DNA of 64,000 nt from Leptotrichia wadei (GTDB taxonomy: Bacteria; Fusobacteriota; Fusobacteriia; Fusobacteriales; Leptotrichiaceae): positions 124,001 to 188,000 of the forward strand of contig NZ_AP019841.1 in NCBI RefSeq assembly GCF_007990445.1. The letters are read 5' to 3'. Under the pieces are notes generated by a model that was given only the letters and a program-made list of their open reading frames with translations, had not been told where the DNA came from and did not search any database. The stretch's first letter is position 1. Each line of letters begins with the position of its first letter. Shown piece by piece: positions 29,546-41,152 of the stretch. The translations under genes were made by a program, and so were the position numbers.

Positions 29546-30250
29546 TTATAGAACTTTAAATTCCAACGAAGAAAATTTCAGTTCATCACTATCTCCTCTA
29601 GCAATAATTGAAATTCTGCCTCTTCTATCTACACGTAAAAATCTATATTCCTTTTCTGAAAATTTTCCATTTTTCTGAATTACTATTTTTTTGCCTTTCA
29701 AATAACTGTTTTCATTTACTATGTGCAATATGCTTTCCCATTCTCTGTTTAAACTATGGAATTCATTTTCAAAAGTTGAAACGATTTCTTCTATTATGTT
29801 TTGTACTGAGTGTTTTTTTCCTGTAATTTCCACAAGTGCGATTGCTTTTTCGCGGAATATTCCAAAATCGGTGTTGTTGATGTTTATTCCAATACCGATT
29901 ATTATGTGATCTCTTACTTTTTCACAAAGAATTCCGCATATTTTTTTGTTTTCATAATAAATGTCGTTTGGCCATTTGAAAGTCAGCTTTTCTTTATTTT
30001 CTATATAATTTTTTAGTACTTTATAGACAATATATCCTGTAAAAATTGTAATTTTTTCATCCAGTTCATAATTGTCATTGATACCGAAGGAAAAGAGGGC
30101 GGCACCTTCGCTTGAAATCCATGTGCTGTCCCTTTTTCCTTTTCCATCTGTCTGTTTTTTGGCTACGATTACTTCAAATTCTTCGATTCTTAGCTGTCGT
30201 CGTAAATATGTATTTGTTGAATTTATTTCATCAAAAAACTTAAATTTCAA
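29546..30250 (-). CDS. birA: Biotin--protein ligase, type I (first copy)
   Basis: Attaches biotin to carrier proteins through biotinyl-AMP. It starts directly in the catalytic domain (FFDEINSTNTYL), with the adenylate loop AKKQTDGKGKRDSTW, the KWPND motif and KKICGIL. At 234 residues it has no N-terminal winged-helix, so it cannot act as a DNA-binding repressor. The adenylate loop is GKGKRD rather than the usual GRGRRGR. A second ligase gene lies at 40409. It follows the FakA-FakB gene in the same direction. Confidence 0.9.
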   Translation of the reverse strand: MKFKFFDEINSTNTYLRRQLRIEEFEVIVAKKQTDGKGKRDSTWISSEGAALFSFGINDNYELDEKITIFTGYIVYKVLKNYIENKEKLTFKWPNDIYYENKKICGILCEKVRDHIIIGIGININNTDFGIFREKAIALVEITGKKHSVQNIIEEIVSTFENEFHSLNREWESILHIVNENSYLKGKKIVIQKNGKFSEKEYRFLRVDRRGRISIIARGDSDELKFSSLEFKVL

Positions 30251-33486: not shown

Positions 33487-33981
33487 TTATTTTATGATTG
33501 ATAAAAATTTTTGAAATAAATTTTCTTTTTTTAAAATAACTTCTATAAATTCACGTACTGCTCCTTCACCGCCGTTTTTAGTAGAAATAAAATCAGCGAT
33601 TGATTTTACTTCGTTTGCTCCATCTAGCGGAGTTCCAGAAAAACCGATTTTTTTTATAATTGCCATGTCATTTAGATCATCGCCCATGTAGGCTATTTCT
33701 TCTTCCTTTAGTCCTGTTTGATTTATAATTTCATCCAGTATTAAAGTCTTTTCAGAAATTCCCTGGAAAAGGTATTTTATTTTTAGTTTTTCAGCACGTC
33801 TTTTTAATAATTCAGATTTTCCACCTGTAATAATTCCAAATTCAATGCCGAGCTTTGGTACATTTACGATGGCATAGCCGTCTTTTACATTGAATTTTTT
33901 TAGTTCTTCGCCACTATTTCCAAGATAGATTCCACCATCGGTCAGTGTTCCATCTACATCTAGTAAAATTAATTTTATCAT
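33487..33981 (-). CDS. kdsC: 3-deoxy-D-manno-octulosonate 8-phosphate phosphatase (KdsC/YrbI family)
   Basis: HAD phosphatase of 164 residues that removes the phosphate from Kdo-8-phosphate for LPS core synthesis. MIKLILLDVDGTLTDGGI carries the two catalytic aspartates (8 and 10), ITGGKSELLKRRAEKL is motif II and YMGDDLNDMAII motif IV. The small, cap-less size is typical of KdsC. No kdsA, kdsB or kdsD is adjacent. A related sialic-acid or heptose HAD is possible but less likely. Confidence 0.85.
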   Translation of the reverse strand: MIKLILLDVDGTLTDGGIYLGNSGEELKKFNVKDGYAIVNVPKLGIEFGIITGGKSELLKRRAEKLKIKYLFQGISEKTLILDEIINQTGLKEEEIAYMGDDLNDMAIIKKIGFSGTPLDGANEVKSIADFISTKNGGEGAVREFIEVILKKENLFQKFLSIIK

Positions 33982-34043: not shown

Positions 34044-34231
34044 ATTTATTTTGCAAAAAAACTAAACGAGAATATTTAAAGAGTATTTATGGATAATCTT
34101 GAATAAGTTCGATGGTTAAGGGTCTAGGGATACTTCAGATCATATTATTTTTAATTTATATCACAGTATATCTTTATAATAAATTTAATCTTTCATAGAA
34201 TATTCTTTTAATTAAAATTTTAAAAAAAATA

Positions 34232-34260
34232 TTGACTTTTAGGAAAAATGTGGGATAATA
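34232..34260 (+). promoter_or_regulatory. Promoter of predicted structured RNA upstream of pckA
   Basis: TTGACT at 34232-34237 and ATAATA or GATAAT near 34254-34260 are spaced 16-17 bases apart. No ORF follows for more than 450 bases, so the product would be an untranslated leader or small RNA. Confidence 0.55.
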
Positions 34261-34265
34261 CTAGT

Positions 34266-34568
34266 GTAGGGAAAAAATAATGTTAAATATGCTTTTAGGC
34301 AATTATATGGCTAGAATAGTGTAATGTTTGTATTAAAGATCAGTGTTAGCAGATTTTTGATACATATTAAAAAAACTGCTGGCTATAAAATTGTAATTTT
34401 TTGATATGTATCTAAATTGTAAATTTAAATTGCTTTTAAGATTTAATATCAAAAGAATTTTGTATTTATTTTTTATAAAAATATTATTATAAATTTAACA
34501 TAACCCAAACAAATTCAAAATTAAAAATATTTTGTGTTTCCCTACATAAAAGTAGGGATTTTTTGTTT
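34266..34568 (+). ncRNA. Candidate structured RNA or leader ahead of pckA
   Basis: The interval lies between a good promoter and an intrinsic terminator and has no convincing ORF. Its first bases, TGTAGGGAAA (34265-34274), are complementary to TTTCCCTACA (34537-34546), which is also the left arm of the terminator, so two folds compete. Inside, GTTAGCAG (34345-34352) pairs with CTGCTGGC (34376-34383) with G-U pairs. GATACATAT (34359-34367) pairs with ATATGTATC (34404-34412), in an interlocking, pseudoknot-like order. It does not show the marks of RNase P, tmRNA or SRP RNA. A 6S-like RNA or an attenuating leader for the pckA-oad genes are the main ideas. Confidence 0.45.
34539..34568 (+). terminator. 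Intrinsic terminator upstream of pckA
   Basis: TCCCTAC (34539-34545) pairs with GTAGGGA (34552-34558) around ATAAAA, followed by a T run. No plus-strand protein gene precedes it, so it ends the predicted RNA that starts near 34266. Confidence 0.75.
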
Positions 34569-34727: not shown

Positions 34728-36323
34728 ATGAAAAAAGTAACAAAAGATTTGGAAAAATTAGGAATAGTAAATGTAATCCAAATTTATAGAAATTTGACAC
34801 CTGCGGAACTTGTTGAACATGCATTAAAAAGAGGAGAAGGTACATTGTCAAGCAGTGGAGCTTTGGTTGTGACGACAGGGAAGTATACAGGACGTTCGCC
34901 TAAGGATAAATATATTGTTGACACTCCAGGGGTTCATGAAAAAATTGCTTGGGGGAATGTGAATAAGCCTATTGAAAAGGAAAAATTTGATTCTATTTAT
35001 AATAAATTGATTGCATATTTGCAAAATCGGGAAATATTTATATTTGATGGAATGGCGGGAGCAGATCCAGCCTGCAGAAAGAAATTTAGAATAATAAATG
35101 AACGAGCTAGCCAAAATTTATTTATACATCAGCTTTTAATCCGTCCGACAGAGGAAGAATTAAAGGATTATGGACATGCTGATTTTACAGTAATTGCGGC
35201 GCCAGGATTTAAATGCAATGCAAAAATTGATGGAATAAATTCATCGGCTGCGATAATTATTGATTATGAAGCAAAAGTTGGGATTATTTGCGGAACAGAA
35301 TATTCGGGAGAAATAAAGAAAAGCGTATTTTCAATAATGAACTTTGTAATGCCTGAAATGGATGTATTGCCTATGCACTGTTCTGCCAATATGGATCCAA
35401 ACACTGGACAGACTGCTATATTTTTCGGGCTTTCAGGAACTGGAAAAACTACGCTTTCAACAGATCCTAACCGTAAGTTAATCGGAGATGATGAACATGG
35501 ATGGTCAGATCATAGCATTTTCAACTTTGAAGGAGGATGTTATGCAAAATGTATAAATCTTGCTCCAGAACACGAGCCTGATATTTATAATGCGATAAAA
35601 TTTGGAAGTCTTGTGGAAAATGTTGTAATGAATCCAAGTACACGTGAATTTGACTTTTATGACAAGAGCTTAACTGAAAATACAAGAGTTGGGTATCCGA
35701 TTAATCATATAAAAAATGCACAAATTCCTGGAATTGGAGGAATTCCAAATGTTGTAATATTTTTGACGGCAGATGCATTTGGTGTTTTACCGCCTGTTTC
35801 AAGACTTTCGAGAGATGCGGCAATTTATCATTTTGTAACAGGATTTACTTCTAAGCTGGCTGGAACTGAACGTGGAATTACAGAACCGCAGCCTACATTC
35901 TCAACTTGCTTTGGAGAACCATTTATGCCGCTTGATCCATCAGTTTATGCAGAAATGCTAGGTAAAAAGATAGATCTTCACAATACAAAAGTATTTTTAA
36001 TAAATACAGGTTGGTCTGGCGGACCTTACGGTGTTGGAAATCGTATGAACTTAACATATACAAGGGCGATGGTAACAGCAGCGTTAAACGGTGATTTAGA
36101 TGAAGTGGAATACAGACACGATGATATTTTCAACCTGGAAATTCCGCAATATTGCCCAAATGTTCCAAGTGAACTGTTAAATCCGGTAGATACGTGGGCA
36201 AATAAGGAAGCCTATGAAGCGGCTGCTAAAAAACTTGCTAAAATGTTTAGAGAAAATTTTGAAACAAAATATCCAAATATGCCAGAACATATTGTAAATG
36301 CTGGACCATCGTATTTTGAGTAG
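34728..36323 (+). CDS. pckA: Phosphoenolpyruvate carboxykinase (ATP)
   Basis: Interconverts oxaloacetate plus ATP with PEP, CO2 and ADP. TGKYTGRSPKDKYIVD near the start, the kinase loop FFGLSGTGKTTLSTDPNR and the metal region GDDEHGWSD are diagnostic. Start set at the ATG at 34728 after CGGAGGGAG, giving 531 residues, the normal size; a longer in-frame reading from a TTG at 34638 would add 30 unsupported residues. In a fermenter it probably works toward oxaloacetate, which the following Oad genes then decarboxylate. A weak promoter (TTGACC at 34638) may lie after the terminator at 34568. Confidence 0.96.
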   Translation: MKKVTKDLEKLGIVNVIQIYRNLTPAELVEHALKRGEGTLSSSGALVVTTGKYTGRSPKDKYIVDTPGVHEKIAWGNVNKPIEKEKFDSIYNKLIAYLQNREIFIFDGMAGADPACRKKFRIINERASQNLFIHQLLIRPTEEELKDYGHADFTVIAAPGFKCNAKIDGINSSAAIIIDYEAKVGIICGTEYSGEIKKSVFSIMNFVMPEMDVLPMHCSANMDPNTGQTAIFFGLSGTGKTTLSTDPNRKLIGDDEHGWSDHSIFNFEGGCYAKCINLAPEHEPDIYNAIKFGSLVENVVMNPSTREFDFYDKSLTENTRVGYPINHIKNAQIPGIGGIPNVVIFLTADAFGVLPPVSRLSRDAAIYHFVTGFTSKLAGTERGITEPQPTFSTCFGEPFMPLDPSVYAEMLGKKIDLHNTKVFLINTGWSGGPYGVGNRMNLTYTRAMVTAALNGDLDEVEYRHDDIFNLEIPQYCPNVPSELLNPVDTWANKEAYEAAAKKLAKMFRENFETKYPNMPEHIVNAGPSYFE

Positions 36324-36367: not shown

Positions 36368-37786
36368 ATGGGAAGAGTAAAAATAACAGAAACATCGCTA
36401 AGGGATGGGCATCAGTCACTTATGGCAACAAGGATGACAACTGCTGAAATGCTTCCAATAATAGAAACAATGGATAAAGTTGGATATTATGCAATGGAAG
36501 TCTGGGGTGGAGCAACTTATGATGCGGCAATTAGATTTTTACATGAAGATCCGTGGGAAAGACTGCGGGAAATTAGGAAAAGAGCTAAAAATACAAAGCT
36601 GCAAATGCTTTTGAGAGGACAAAATTTACTTGGTTATCGGCATTATGCAGATGATATTGTGGATAAGTTTGTTGAACTTTCAATAAAAAATGGAATTGAT
36701 ATTATTAGAACATTTGATGCTTTGAATGATACGAGAAATATAAGACAGGCATCTGAAAGCACTAAGAAATATGGAGGGCATAGCCAGCTTGCTATTTGCT
36801 ATACAATTAGCCCAGTTCACACGATTGAATATTATAAAAAACTGGCTTTGGAAATGCAAAGCATGGGAGCAGATTCCATCGCTATAAAGGATATGTCTGG
36901 AATTCTGCTTCCAAATATGGCTTATGAACTTGTAGGCGAGTTAAAAAGCATTTTGAAAGTTCCGCTTGAATTACATACGCATGCAACTGCGGGATTAGCT
37001 GGAATGAGCACGTTAAAGGCAATTGAGGCTGGAGTGGATATTGTAGATACGGCAATTTCGCCTTTTGGAGGTGGAACTTCACAGCCGCCTACAGAATCGC
37101 TTGTCAGAACTTTGCAAGGCTCAAAATACGATACAGGATTGGATCTTGAACTTTTAAAGGAAATTGCAGAGTATTTTAAGCCAATAAGAAAAAAATACAT
37201 TGACAATGGAACATTAAATCCAAAGGCTCTTGCGGTAGAGCCAAGCATTGTGGAATATCAGCTGCCTGGAGGAATGCTTTCAAATCTTGTGTCGCAATTG
37301 AAGGCGCAGGGAGCGGAAGATAAATATGAAGATGTGCTTCGTGAAATTCCGAAGGTAAGAAAAGATCTAGGTTATCCGCCATTAGTAACTCCAATGAGCC
37401 AAATGGTTGGAACGCAGTCAGTATTTAATGTTTTGACAGGACAAAGATATAAGATGATTCCGAAGGAAATTAAAGATTATGTGAAGGGAATGTACGGGAA
37501 ATCACCTGTGGAAATTTCTAGTGAAATTAAGTCGGTTATAATTGGAAATGATAAGGTATTTACTGGAAGACCTGCCGATTTGCTGCAAAATGAATATGAT
37601 ACGATGAAAAATGAAATTGGAAGCTTGGCAAAGTCTGATGAAGATGTATTGACTTATGCGTGTTTTCCTCAAATTGCAAAAAATTATTTGAAGGAAAAAT
37701 ATGAAGCGAAATATTTAAAGGAAACAGAAAAACAAAAAAAATCAAAAGGTGAAATAAGTGTTCAAAATATTGAAGTGATTTTTTAA
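36368..37786 (+). CDS. oadA: Oxaloacetate decarboxylase alpha subunit (carboxyltransferase)
   Basis: Transfers carboxyl from oxaloacetate to biotin; first half-reaction of the Na+-pumping decarboxylase. TETSLRDGHQSLMATRM gives the metal site, AIKDMSG the catalytic lysine, and LHTHATAGLAGM the metal-binding histidines. The chain ends at residue 472, before the biotin domain that many OadA proteins carry; that domain is a separate gene at 38783. Start set at the ATG at 36368, because the upstream ATG at 36356 precedes the GGAGG site. It follows pckA by about 45 bp. Confidence 0.94.
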   Translation: MGRVKITETSLRDGHQSLMATRMTTAEMLPIIETMDKVGYYAMEVWGGATYDAAIRFLHEDPWERLREIRKRAKNTKLQMLLRGQNLLGYRHYADDIVDKFVELSIKNGIDIIRTFDALNDTRNIRQASESTKKYGGHSQLAICYTISPVHTIEYYKKLALEMQSMGADSIAIKDMSGILLPNMAYELVGELKSILKVPLELHTHATAGLAGMSTLKAIEAGVDIVDTAISPFGGGTSQPPTESLVRTLQGSKYDTGLDLELLKEIAEYFKPIRKKYIDNGTLNPKALAVEPSIVEYQLPGGMLSNLVSQLKAQGAEDKYEDVLREIPKVRKDLGYPPLVTPMSQMVGTQSVFNVLTGQRYKMIPKEIKDYVKGMYGKSPVEISSEIKSVIIGNDKVFTGRPADLLQNEYDTMKNEIGSLAKSDEDVLTYACFPQIAKNYLKEKYEAKYLKETEKQKKSKGEISVQNIEVIF

Positions 37787-37928: not shown

Positions 37929-38195
37929 ATGAATTTAGATATAGATTATTTCAAAAGAAAGTTAAAGGAAATAACAGATTGGTATGAAAATACTGCTTGG
38001 AATAAAAAAACATTACTTGAAAAAATATTAGAACTTGATACGGAAATAAATAAGACTCGTGATAAGGAAAACCTGATAGATTGGGAAAAATTAACTCATA
38101 CAGAAGAAAAAATTGTAAGTGATATGGTTCATCTTAGAAATAAAATGAAACTTTCGCATAAGGAAAAGTTTGACAGTTATTACAAAGTAAAGTAA
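37929..38195 (+). CDS. Small unknown protein within the oad cluster
   Basis: Not recognised. An 88-residue, highly charged, probably all-helical protein with no membrane segment or signal peptide. It has a good ribosome site (AGAGAGGTGG) and lies between oadA and oadG in the same direction, with 140 bp before and 194 bp after. It could be an accessory factor of the decarboxylase or an unrelated insertion. Lack of repeats or cysteines gives no hint of function. Confidence 0.55.
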   Translation: MNLDIDYFKRKLKEITDWYENTAWNKKTLLEKILELDTEINKTRDKENLIDWEKLTHTEEKIVSDMVHLRNKMKLSHKEKFDSYYKVK

Positions 38196-38389: not shown

Positions 38390-38752
38390 ATGAAAAGTAT
38401 TTTGTTTGGAAATTCGGCTGTAACATTTGCAGATGCGATTTATATTTCAGTTGTAAGTATGTTAATTGTTTTTTTCATATTATTTTTAATTTCATTTATG
38501 TTATCATTTTTTAAATATTTTTCAAATTTTGAGGGGAAAAATGAAGATAATAAAAAAACAAATGATAATAGAATTTTGGAAAAGTCTGAAAAATTAAGCA
38601 GTGAAAAGGAATTGGATAAAAAAGAAAAATTTAGTATGGAAAAAATAAAAGATGAAACTATGATGGCAGCAATGATGGCGGCTCTGATTGAAGCGGCCGG
38701 GGATAATAAGAATAGCCGTATAAAAATAAGAAGTATTAGGGAAATAAAATAA
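38390..38752 (+). CDS. oadG: Oxaloacetate decarboxylase gamma subunit (OadG family)
   Basis: Small membrane anchor that holds the alpha and beta subunits together. One strong hydrophobic helix at about residues 18-42 is followed by a charged cytoplasmic region and a methionine- and alanine-rich segment (MMAAMMAALIEAA) seen in this family. 120 residues. The assignment rests on topology plus position between oadA and the biotin carrier gene; the sequence itself is weakly conserved. AAAGGAAT site. Confidence 0.75.
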   Translation: MKSILFGNSAVTFADAIYISVVSMLIVFFILFLISFMLSFFKYFSNFEGKNEDNKKTNDNRILEKSEKLSSEKELDKKEKFSMEKIKDETMMAAMMAALIEAAGDNKNSRIKIRSIREIK

Positions 38753-38782
38753 AATCTGGAAATACAAAGGGGCATGACAAAT

Positions 38783-39157
38783 ATGATTAAACTGTATAAA
38801 ATCAGAATTGGAGAAAAAGTTTATGAAGTGGAAGTGGAAGAAGTTACAGAAAAAGATGGAAACATTGAAACTTCAGCTGATTCAAAAGGTAAACAAAAAA
38901 TAGACAAAAATGAAAATCCACCTTTACAAGGGGAAACTGGAAAAAATGAAGTAATAAAAGCTCCAATGCAGGGACTTATTGTGGATGTAAAAGTAAAAAC
39001 CGGAGAAAAGGTAAAAGCTGGAGATGAAATCATCATTTTAGAAGCAATGAAAATGGAAAATCCAATTGTAGCACCTTGTGATGGAGTTATAAATGAAATT
39101 AAAGTGACTAAAGGGGATAAAGTGAATACTGATGATGTTTTGGCAGTATTATCCTAA
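38783..39157 (+). CDS. Biotin carboxyl carrier protein of the decarboxylase
   Basis: Free-standing biotinyl domain with the attachment motif EAMKMEN; the second lysine-flanking Met-Lys-Met is intact. A linker of about 45 charged residues separates a short N-terminal part (KLYKIRIGEKVYEVEVEEV) from the lipoyl-like fold (APMQGLIVDVKVKTGEKV...). Start chosen at the ATG at 38783 (124 residues), which stands 10 bases after GGGG; the ATG at 38774 is too close. It supplies the domain missing from OadA. Confidence 0.92.
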   Translation: MIKLYKIRIGEKVYEVEVEEVTEKDGNIETSADSKGKQKIDKNENPPLQGETGKNEVIKAPMQGLIVDVKVKTGEKVKAGDEIIILEAMKMENPIVAPCDGVINEIKVTKGDKVNTDDVLAVLS

Positions 39158-39208
39158 ATTACTTTAAATTCAATATTACTAAAAACCTAAGGAAAGGATG
39201 GTTTTCAA

Positions 39209-40327
39209 ATGGAACTACTAAAAATTCTTTACGGGACAACAGGAATATCTATGATAACTGGAAGGCAGCTAATCATGATAATAATTTCCCTAATTTTGCT
39301 ATATTTAGCAATAAAAAAACAATACGAACCTTATTTGCTGCTCCCAATTTCATTTGGAATGCTGCTTGCAAACTTACCTGCTGTGGCAAATGAAGGACTT
39401 ATGGAAAAGGGTGGACTTCTTTACTATTTGTATCAAGGAGTAAAATTGGGAATTTATCCGCCATTAATATTTTTGGCGATAGGAGCAAGTACTGATTTTG
39501 GACCGCTTATTGCAAATCCGAAAAGCCTTTTGCTGGGAGCGGCTGCGCAGCTTGGAATTTTTGTGGCATTTCTTGGGGCAATTTTGCTGGGATTGACAGG
39601 AAAGGAAGCGGCTTCGATTGGAATTATTGGAGGAGCTGACGGACCGACTGCTATTTACTTGACAACAAAACTGGCACCGCATTTACTGGGATCAATTGCC
39701 ATTGCAGCTTATTCCTATATGGCTCTTGTGCCTGTAATTCAGCCGCCAATTATAAAATTATTGACAAGTAAAAAGGAAAGAATGGTTGAAATGAAGCAAC
39801 TTAGATTTGTGAGCCAAAGAGAAAAAATAATTTTTCCAATTGCAGTAACAATCATTGTTATTCTTTTAGTTCCATCATCAGCTCCGCTAATTGGAATGCT
39901 AATGCTTGGGAATCTAATAAAGGAAGCAGGTGTTGTTTCAAATTTAGTTGAACATGCAAGAGGAGCTATGCTATACTGTATTACAATTGTACTTGGAATG
40001 ACAGTTGGAGCAACTGCTGACGGAGAGCATTTTTTAAATTTTGTAACAATAAAAATCATTATTCTTGGATTAATTGCATTTTCTTTCGGAACAGTGGGAG
40101 GAGTGCTATTTGGGAAAATAATGTATAAATTCACAAAAGGAAAAGTAAATCCGATGATTGGAGCAGCAGGGGTTTCAGCAGTGCCAATGGCGGCAAGAGT
40201 TGTTCAAAAAATTGGGCAATCTGAAAATCCTAAAAATTTTTTGCTAATGCATGCAATGGGACCAAATATAGCTGGTGTAATTGGATCGGCTGTAGCAGCA
40301 GGAGTTCTTTTAATAATATTTAGATAA
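39209..40327 (+). CDS. oadB: Oxaloacetate decarboxylase beta subunit (Na+ pump)
   Basis: Integral membrane subunit that decarboxylates carboxybiotin and exports Na+. 372 residues with nine to eleven helices. The conserved core GGADGPTAIYLTTKLAPHLL contains the key aspartate, SYMALVPVIQPPI follows, and near the C-terminus GAAGVSAVPMAARV and MHAMGPNIAGVIGSAV are the ion-pathway helices. AAAGGATGG site. It completes the enzyme begun by oadA, oadG and the carrier gene. Confidence 0.95.
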   Translation: MELLKILYGTTGISMITGRQLIMIIISLILLYLAIKKQYEPYLLLPISFGMLLANLPAVANEGLMEKGGLLYYLYQGVKLGIYPPLIFLAIGASTDFGPLIANPKSLLLGAAAQLGIFVAFLGAILLGLTGKEAASIGIIGGADGPTAIYLTTKLAPHLLGSIAIAAYSYMALVPVIQPPIIKLLTSKKERMVEMKQLRFVSQREKIIFPIAVTIIVILLVPSSAPLIGMLMLGNLIKEAGVVSNLVEHARGAMLYCITIVLGMTVGATADGEHFLNFVTIKIIILGLIAFSFGTVGGVLFGKIMYKFTKGKVNPMIGAAGVSAVPMAARVVQKIGQSENPKNFLLMHAMGPNIAGVIGSAVAAGVLLIIFR

Positions 40328-40378: not shown

Positions 40379-40408
40379 TAAATTAATAAATAGATGGAAG
40401 GAGAAAAA

Positions 40409-41152
40409 ATGAAAAAAAATATAAATTTGTATAAATTTAATGAATTGGGTTCAACGAATGATTATTTGGAAAGAAATCATAGGAATTATGAGGAATTTGA
40501 TGTTATTTGTGCTAAAAATCAGACTCATGGAAGGGCACGTAGGCAGAATAACTGGGTTTCTATGGAGGGAATGGCTATCTTCAGCTTTTTTTTGGAGGAA
40601 AGGGAAAACTGGGAAATTGAGGATTACTTGAAATTGCCTTTAATTGCTGGGCTTGCGACAATAAGAGGATTAGGGGGAATAGAAAATTTAGAGTATAAAT
40701 TTAAATGGACAAATGATGTTTACTTGGAAAATAAGAAGTTATGCGGGATTTTGATGGAAAAAACAGATAATGTCTATATTGTTGGAATTGGGATAAATGT
40801 AAATAATATATTGCCGGAAAAATTGAAAAATAAGGCAATTTCATTGACACAGGCGACAAATAAAAAATATAAAATTGATGAAATTGTAAAAAATATTGTT
40901 TCTGAATTTCAAATATTGTGTGAAAATTTGAGAAATGGATCGTGGGAAGAGATTTTAAAGGAAATAAATGAAATAAATTATTTGAAGAATAAAAAGATAG
41001 AATTGAAATTTGGAAATGAAAAAGTTCTGGGAATTGCACAAGATATTAATGAAAATGGAGAAATTGAAGTTTTGGTAAAAAAGGATGAAGCAGGAAAAGG
41101 TGAGATTAAGAGTTTTTCAATTGGAGAGGTTTTTGAAAAAATTGTTTTTTAA
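40409..41152 (+). CDS. birA: Biotin--protein ligase, type I (second copy)
   Basis: Second ligase in the window, 247 residues, also without a DNA-binding domain. FNELGSTNDYL opens the catalytic domain, KNQTHGRARRQNNW is the adenylate loop, FKWTNDVY replaces the common KWPND, and KKLCGIL follows. Start set at the ATG at 40409; the ATG at 40394 precedes the AAGGAG site. Position right after the oad genes suggests it biotinylates the carrier protein at 38783. It differs clearly from the copy at 29546, so the two may prefer different substrates. Confidence 0.88.
   Translation: MKKNINLYKFNELGSTNDYLERNHRNYEEFDVICAKNQTHGRARRQNNWVSMEGMAIFSFFLEERENWEIEDYLKLPLIAGLATIRGLGGIENLEYKFKWTNDVYLENKKLCGILMEKTDNVYIVGIGINVNNILPEKLKNKAISLTQATNKKYKIDEIVKNIVSEFQILCENLRNGSWEEILKEINEINYLKNKKIELKFGNEKVLGIAQDINENGEIEVLVKKDEAGKGEIKSFSIGEVFEKIVF

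Follow-up and report, generated by a model that had tools for sequence, protein, structure and literature searches.

The interval 34232–34568 of the Leptotrichia wadei DNA analysed here (a stretch of 64,000 nucleotides, hereafter the window) probably encodes the 5′ leader of the pckA-oad operon, acting as a conditional transcription terminator. A promoter is followed by an ORF-poor RNA of about 300 nt, an intrinsic terminator and then pckA. This element occurs as a single copy in 10 of 13 species of Leptotrichia, an abundant oral genus, always immediately upstream of pckA. As a conserved leader that is clearly built like a switch but lacks a known aptamer, it is a candidate orphan riboswitch for which a short-list of ligands is obvious, and three congeners that keep the promoter without the leader provide a natural control.

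Genomic setting and distribution

Coordinates are those of the window, and features lie on its plus strand unless stated otherwise. The studied interval is situated between a divergent kdsC-like phosphatase gene (33487–33981, minus strand) and pckA, which encodes phosphoenolpyruvate (PEP) carboxykinase (ATP) (34728–36323, ATG at 34728; TIGR00224 above cutoff). Downstream follow oadA for the oxaloacetate decarboxylase alpha subunit (36368–37786; NF008985 above cutoff), an ORF of 88 aa, the Na+ pump genes at 38390–40327, comprising a weak oadG-like gene, a biotin carrier gene and oadB (TIGR01109), and a biotin ligase gene. Judged from the pathway, PEP carboxykinase in this operon probably fixes CO2 in connection with a Na+ pump that depends on biotin. 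The 88-aa ORF (37929–38195) is without a match in Pfam or NCBIfam. The window has two biotin-ligase-like ORFs, one at 29546–30250 on the minus strand (judged by eye from its translation) and the other at 40394–41152 (TIGR00121).

A preliminary description of this DNA had proposed a good promoter followed by an intrinsic terminator ahead of pckA, and both are present, at 34232–34259 and 34539–34564. The promoter (TTGACT-16-GATAAT, its −10 box preceded by TG) is kept in all ten element-bearing species, and transcription is predicted to start at about G34266. Upstream of the −35 box, a conserved block of approximately 50 bp at 34172–34222 (CTTTATAATAAATTTAATCTTTCATAGAATATTCTTTTAATTAAAATT), which includes the palindrome-like TCTTTTAATTAAAA, is nearly invariant in the same ten species and is replaced by other sequence in the three species without the element. 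This block may be a UP element or a regulator-binding site. Further copies of it with 0–2 mismatches were absent from the genus, and a regulon sharing the block was rejected because the genus holds no second close match.

The surroundings of the element have been reshuffled on one side only. Its left neighbours are of four kinds, namely a kdsC-like gene, toxN, a HAD phosphatase and a MATE transporter (named by eye, except toxN and the kdsC-like gene), while pckA is constant on the right. In two species (G008 and G010; L004:1968-2650, also L005), the left neighbour is a type III toxin-antitoxin locus made up of tandemly repeated 38-bp units (3.2 copies in L004), a terminator hairpin and ToxN (PF13958, E = 3.5e-35). 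The element was not found in other genera by a DNA search of 60 relatives or by searching as many as 98 genomes of the phylum for sequence patterns, nor was a similar leader detected at pckA in other genera of the family. Local covariance-model searches gave strong matches at the ten known loci only. Similarly, second copies of the 5′ block, the P2 block and the P1/linker block were either absent elsewhere or present at control frequency. A recurring 33-nt match to 34352–34384 elsewhere in the genus lies inside a helicase-like coding ORF and was discarded as a chance similarity.

The three species without the element (G004, G006 and G012) form one clade of unsettled position on the pckA tree, and the comparison with them therefore counts as one event. 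Here, the same −35/−10 region is retained as the direct promoter of pckA and drives the gene via a leader of 92–98 nt without a terminator. In place of GTAGGGA, the 5′ end has GTTAGGA, GTTAGAG or GTTAGAA, and its complement is lost. By eye, an integrase-like gene is present in the left flank. Together, conservation, synteny and these species support a conditional leader of pckA-oad with mutually exclusive pairings, one of the two readings offered in the preliminary description.

Folded domain and predicted competing 5′-end pairings

The RNA body contains a conserved folded domain, as evidenced by an alignment of ten sequences from one genus. P1 pairs AUGUUAAAU (34280–34288) with AUUUAACAU (34493–34501), reads AUGUUGAAU/AUUUAACAU in the alignment, and is paired in 97% of alignment cells. 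P2 pairs CAAUU-A-UAUGG (34300–34310) with CUAUAAAAUUG (34383–34393) in 99% of cells; its consensus is CAAUU-N-UAUAG/CUAUA-A-AAUUG, in which the central mismatch is kept as non-pairing. The variable hairpin P2a (34329–34364, pairing 34329–34341 with 34352–34364) has 5 of 14 pairs changed on both sides. P4 (34516–34534, CAAAAU/AUUUUG) is a hairpin with a loop length very different among species. A linker CCC (34504–34506) is able to pair with the 5′ GGG in both the minimum-free-energy (MFE) and consensus folds, and all of its changes in relatives are C to U, which keeps a G-U pair. This pairing would keep the 5′ end off the terminator.

The structured body is conserved over 223–334 nt among species. 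The MFE of the window RNA is well below that of shuffled sequences (z = −4.2), with negative z in all ten relatives, and the consensus fold of the ten sequences (alifold) reaches z = −9.4, with 0 of 150 column shuffles as good. Across P1, P2, P2a and the terminator, 94% of cells pair, compared with 32–48% when the partners are slid. The covariation score is 0.149 vs 0.124 ± 0.008 in shuffles. Of the substitutions in P1 and P2 placed on the tree, 11 of 14 keep the pair and 3 break it (P = 4e-4 under a simple per-event model). A conserved structured domain with covariation thus lies upstream of the putative switch. Conservation of the helices in related genomes, on which the preliminary description had staked its reading, is borne out for P1, P2, P2a and the terminator in ten species. 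The two interlocking, pseudoknot-like helices that it had described, here taken to be GATACATAT/ATATGTATC, do not share this conservation; on inspection of the alignment they are confined to the window species and, partly, its near relative G002.

Two further tracts flank the P2 3′ strand, an A-run at 34369–34375 and an invariant U6 at 34397–34402 directly after P2, and both are largely invariant in the ten species with no obvious helix found to account for it. The two tracts are a possible recognition or tertiary site. Pairing between them around P2 was considered and set aside, as the runs are invariant without covariation and a connector of 3 nt appears too short to allow a classical pseudoknot.

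The intrinsic terminator (34539–34564, UCCCUAC-AUAAAA-GUAGGGA-U6) is paired in 100% of cells in ten species. The first nine bases of the predicted transcript (GUAGGGAAA, 34266–34274, from the start site proposed above) are exactly complementary to the strand containing its left arm (GTAGGGAAA / TTTCCCTAC), and form the 9-bp helix P0 with 34537–34545. A complement of ten bases had been described earlier; nine stand, while the tenth pair, T34265/A34546, falls immediately beyond the likely transcript and lacks conservation, relatives having A or T. The shared strand UUUCCCUAC (34537–34545), which would serve as antiterminator 3′ strand and as terminator left arm, shows no substitution in the ten species, whereas both of its partner strands vary, by A to G only, such that both pairings are kept. 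This invariance fits one strand serving two helices, with the reservation that invariant columns cannot prove pairing. P0 is likewise kept in 10 of 10 element-bearing species, without covariation, and with its shared strand unchanged constitutes a conserved alternative to the terminator, with which it could not coexist. When the RNA body was shuffled 1000 times, a complement of 9 nt or more arose 23 times, and none of 126 control terminators from other loci had one upstream.

P0 can be extended by a second helix, P0x, with its 5′ strand at 34275–34286, overlapping that of P1, and its 3′ strand at 34521–34533, just before the P0 3′ strand. In the 13-pair register of 34274–34286 with 34521–34533 (AAAAUAAUGUUGA and UUAAUAUUAUUUU), 93% of cells pair. 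P0 and P0x together would make an antiterminator of approximately 22 bp that would compete with P1 for the same 5′ strand. P0x is above chance in 6 of 10 species and weak in three genomes of the window's own clade (G000, G002 and G003). Neither P0 nor P0x shows compensatory changes, and their invariance could instead reflect constraints on the initial transcript or on ribosome binding. In folding energy, the terminator state is favoured over the P0 state by 0 to 5.3 kcal/mol; when the terminator 3′ arm is not yet made, forced P0 pairing gives an energy 6.6–10.1 kcal/mol lower than leaving the strand unpaired. This near-balance is what a co-transcriptional switch needs.

Proposed switch and alternative readings

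The model that we favour, in which the start site, transcription, switching, the direction of control and any ligand are inferred, gives the most conserved strand of the RNA, from +1 to about +24, two sets of partners. In one state, P1, which closes the P1/P2/P2a domain, would sequester the second half of this strand, and the GGG could pair with the linker CCC; UUUCCCUAC would then be free, the terminator would form and transcription would stop at a length of some 300 nt. In the alternative state, UUUCCCUAC would be paired with the 5′ end through P0, the terminator would be blocked and polymerase would read into pckA. In most species, P0x would add up to 13 bp with the A/U stretch just before UUUCCCUAC, displacing P1. 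The choice of state would be set by something that stabilizes or loosens the P1/P2 domain, for which our first guess is a small molecule of the PEP/oxaloacetate/CO2 node, and which may also be a protein.

Of the nine segments scored between the terminator and the pckA ATG, seven contain no promoter-like site that outscores shuffled sequence, and two contain a marginal one. At the level of sequence, a terminator thus stands between the promoter and the first gene with no later promoter, the two relatives being marginal, and pckA seems to need read-through. This apparent need, the occurrence of the element only with pckA, and the joining of promoter to gene where the element is absent argue for a leader rather than a free RNA. 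An independent sRNA gene that has its own strong promoter and terminator and precedes pckA by chance, with a 5′ end that protects the RNA or binds a target, would account for the strong conserved promoter with its dedicated upstream block and for the compact body, stable fold and real terminator. We nevertheless regard this reading as unlikely: for a free trans-acting sRNA one would expect separation from pckA, and none is seen despite the reshuffled left side; pckA mostly has no recognizable promoter of its own after the terminator, the same promoter is fused to pckA where the element is lost, and P0 is incompatible with the very terminator that would define the sRNA 3′ end. The terminated product of the leader might also act as a free sRNA. 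The element is not a 6S RNA, which the preliminary description had entertained on account of size and end pairing, and another known housekeeping RNA is hardly credible. The 6S gene is found elsewhere in this genome (G000:C1:2133854-2134056, above the gathering score), the element never occurs away from pckA and is missing from three congeners, and the Rfam search that had been suggested, with a threshold as loose as E = 10, yielded only chance matches in the interval.

Two readings remain that concern the leader itself. In the AT-rich genome, and with P0 lacking covariation, the terminator could be an unconditional, leaky one behind an AT-rich spacer and the complementarity a remnant, but the absence of such a complement at every control terminator and the conservation of a structured body make this very improbable. 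Translation-coupled attenuation deserves more weight, and still appears rather improbable. The interval is not quite the stretch of some 300 bases without an ORF that had been described, since it holds a short ORF of 14 codons at 34280–34324 behind AGGGA, probably incidental, with 4–24 codons among relatives. A ribosome on this ORF would mask the 5′ end, so that initiation would favour the terminator and its failure the antiterminator. The ATG lies at +15 in 10 of 10 species, preceded by AGGGA-like purines that resemble a Shine–Dalgarno (SD) sequence and fall within the P0 5′ strand; a 3-codon ORF occurs at nearly the same place in the three species without the element; and an SD would likewise be strengthened by the A to G changes of the P0 5′ strand. 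Against this, the stop codon is not conserved, no common codon run extends past MLN, and the AUG lies within P1. The variable length and the lack of a shared codon run reduce a leader peptide to a minor alternative.

Within the conditional-terminator model, it is plausible that the leader is a ligand-sensing riboswitch, for which it is a candidate on its sequence features. More tentatively, it may define a riboswitch class that is new and confined to the genus. Its ligand would be a metabolite or ion from the PEP-carboxykinase/oxaloacetate-decarboxylase Na+-pump branch, such as PEP, oxaloacetate, bicarbonate or Na+, and it would switch the operon via the first nucleotides of the transcript; we hold this possibility to be considerably short of even.

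Comparison with known systems

The element resembles 6S RNA (RF00013) in being a long RNA with ends able to pair; however, the two are not homologous, and the genome has its separate 6S gene. With ribosome-mediated attenuators that use leader peptides, it shares a short 5′ ORF and mutually exclusive hairpins and differs in that its ORF has neither a conserved codon run nor a conserved length. Its expression-platform logic is that of terminator/antiterminator riboswitch leaders, which likewise combine a closed aptamer-like domain (here P1/P2/P2a), an antiterminator strand shared with the terminator, and a position within the 5′ UTR that precedes metabolic genes of one operon. In comparison with these, the pckA element is without a known aptamer (Rfam 15 gave neither an aptamer family nor any other match), and its antiterminator would be formed with the very first bases of the RNA.

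A literature search on pckA leaders or riboswitches returned nothing relevant. A survey by the Breaker laboratory reported four riboswitch candidates in L. buccalis, of which the main text describes manA-II and fhsA (PMC11109978). pckA is not named in that main text; two of the four candidates go unnamed in it and may be in the supplement, so the pckA leader may already have been listed. The manA-II and fhsA motifs are associated with other genes (manA/pflA-like and fhs), and manA-II is described as a 3-stem junction with two hairpins, which sets them apart from the element (PMC11109978). All three, however, occur in Leptotrichia with a narrow distribution and place a structure ahead of an intrinsic terminator, and for fhsA, as described in the main text, the authors likewise propose a terminator-blocking interaction (PMC11109978).
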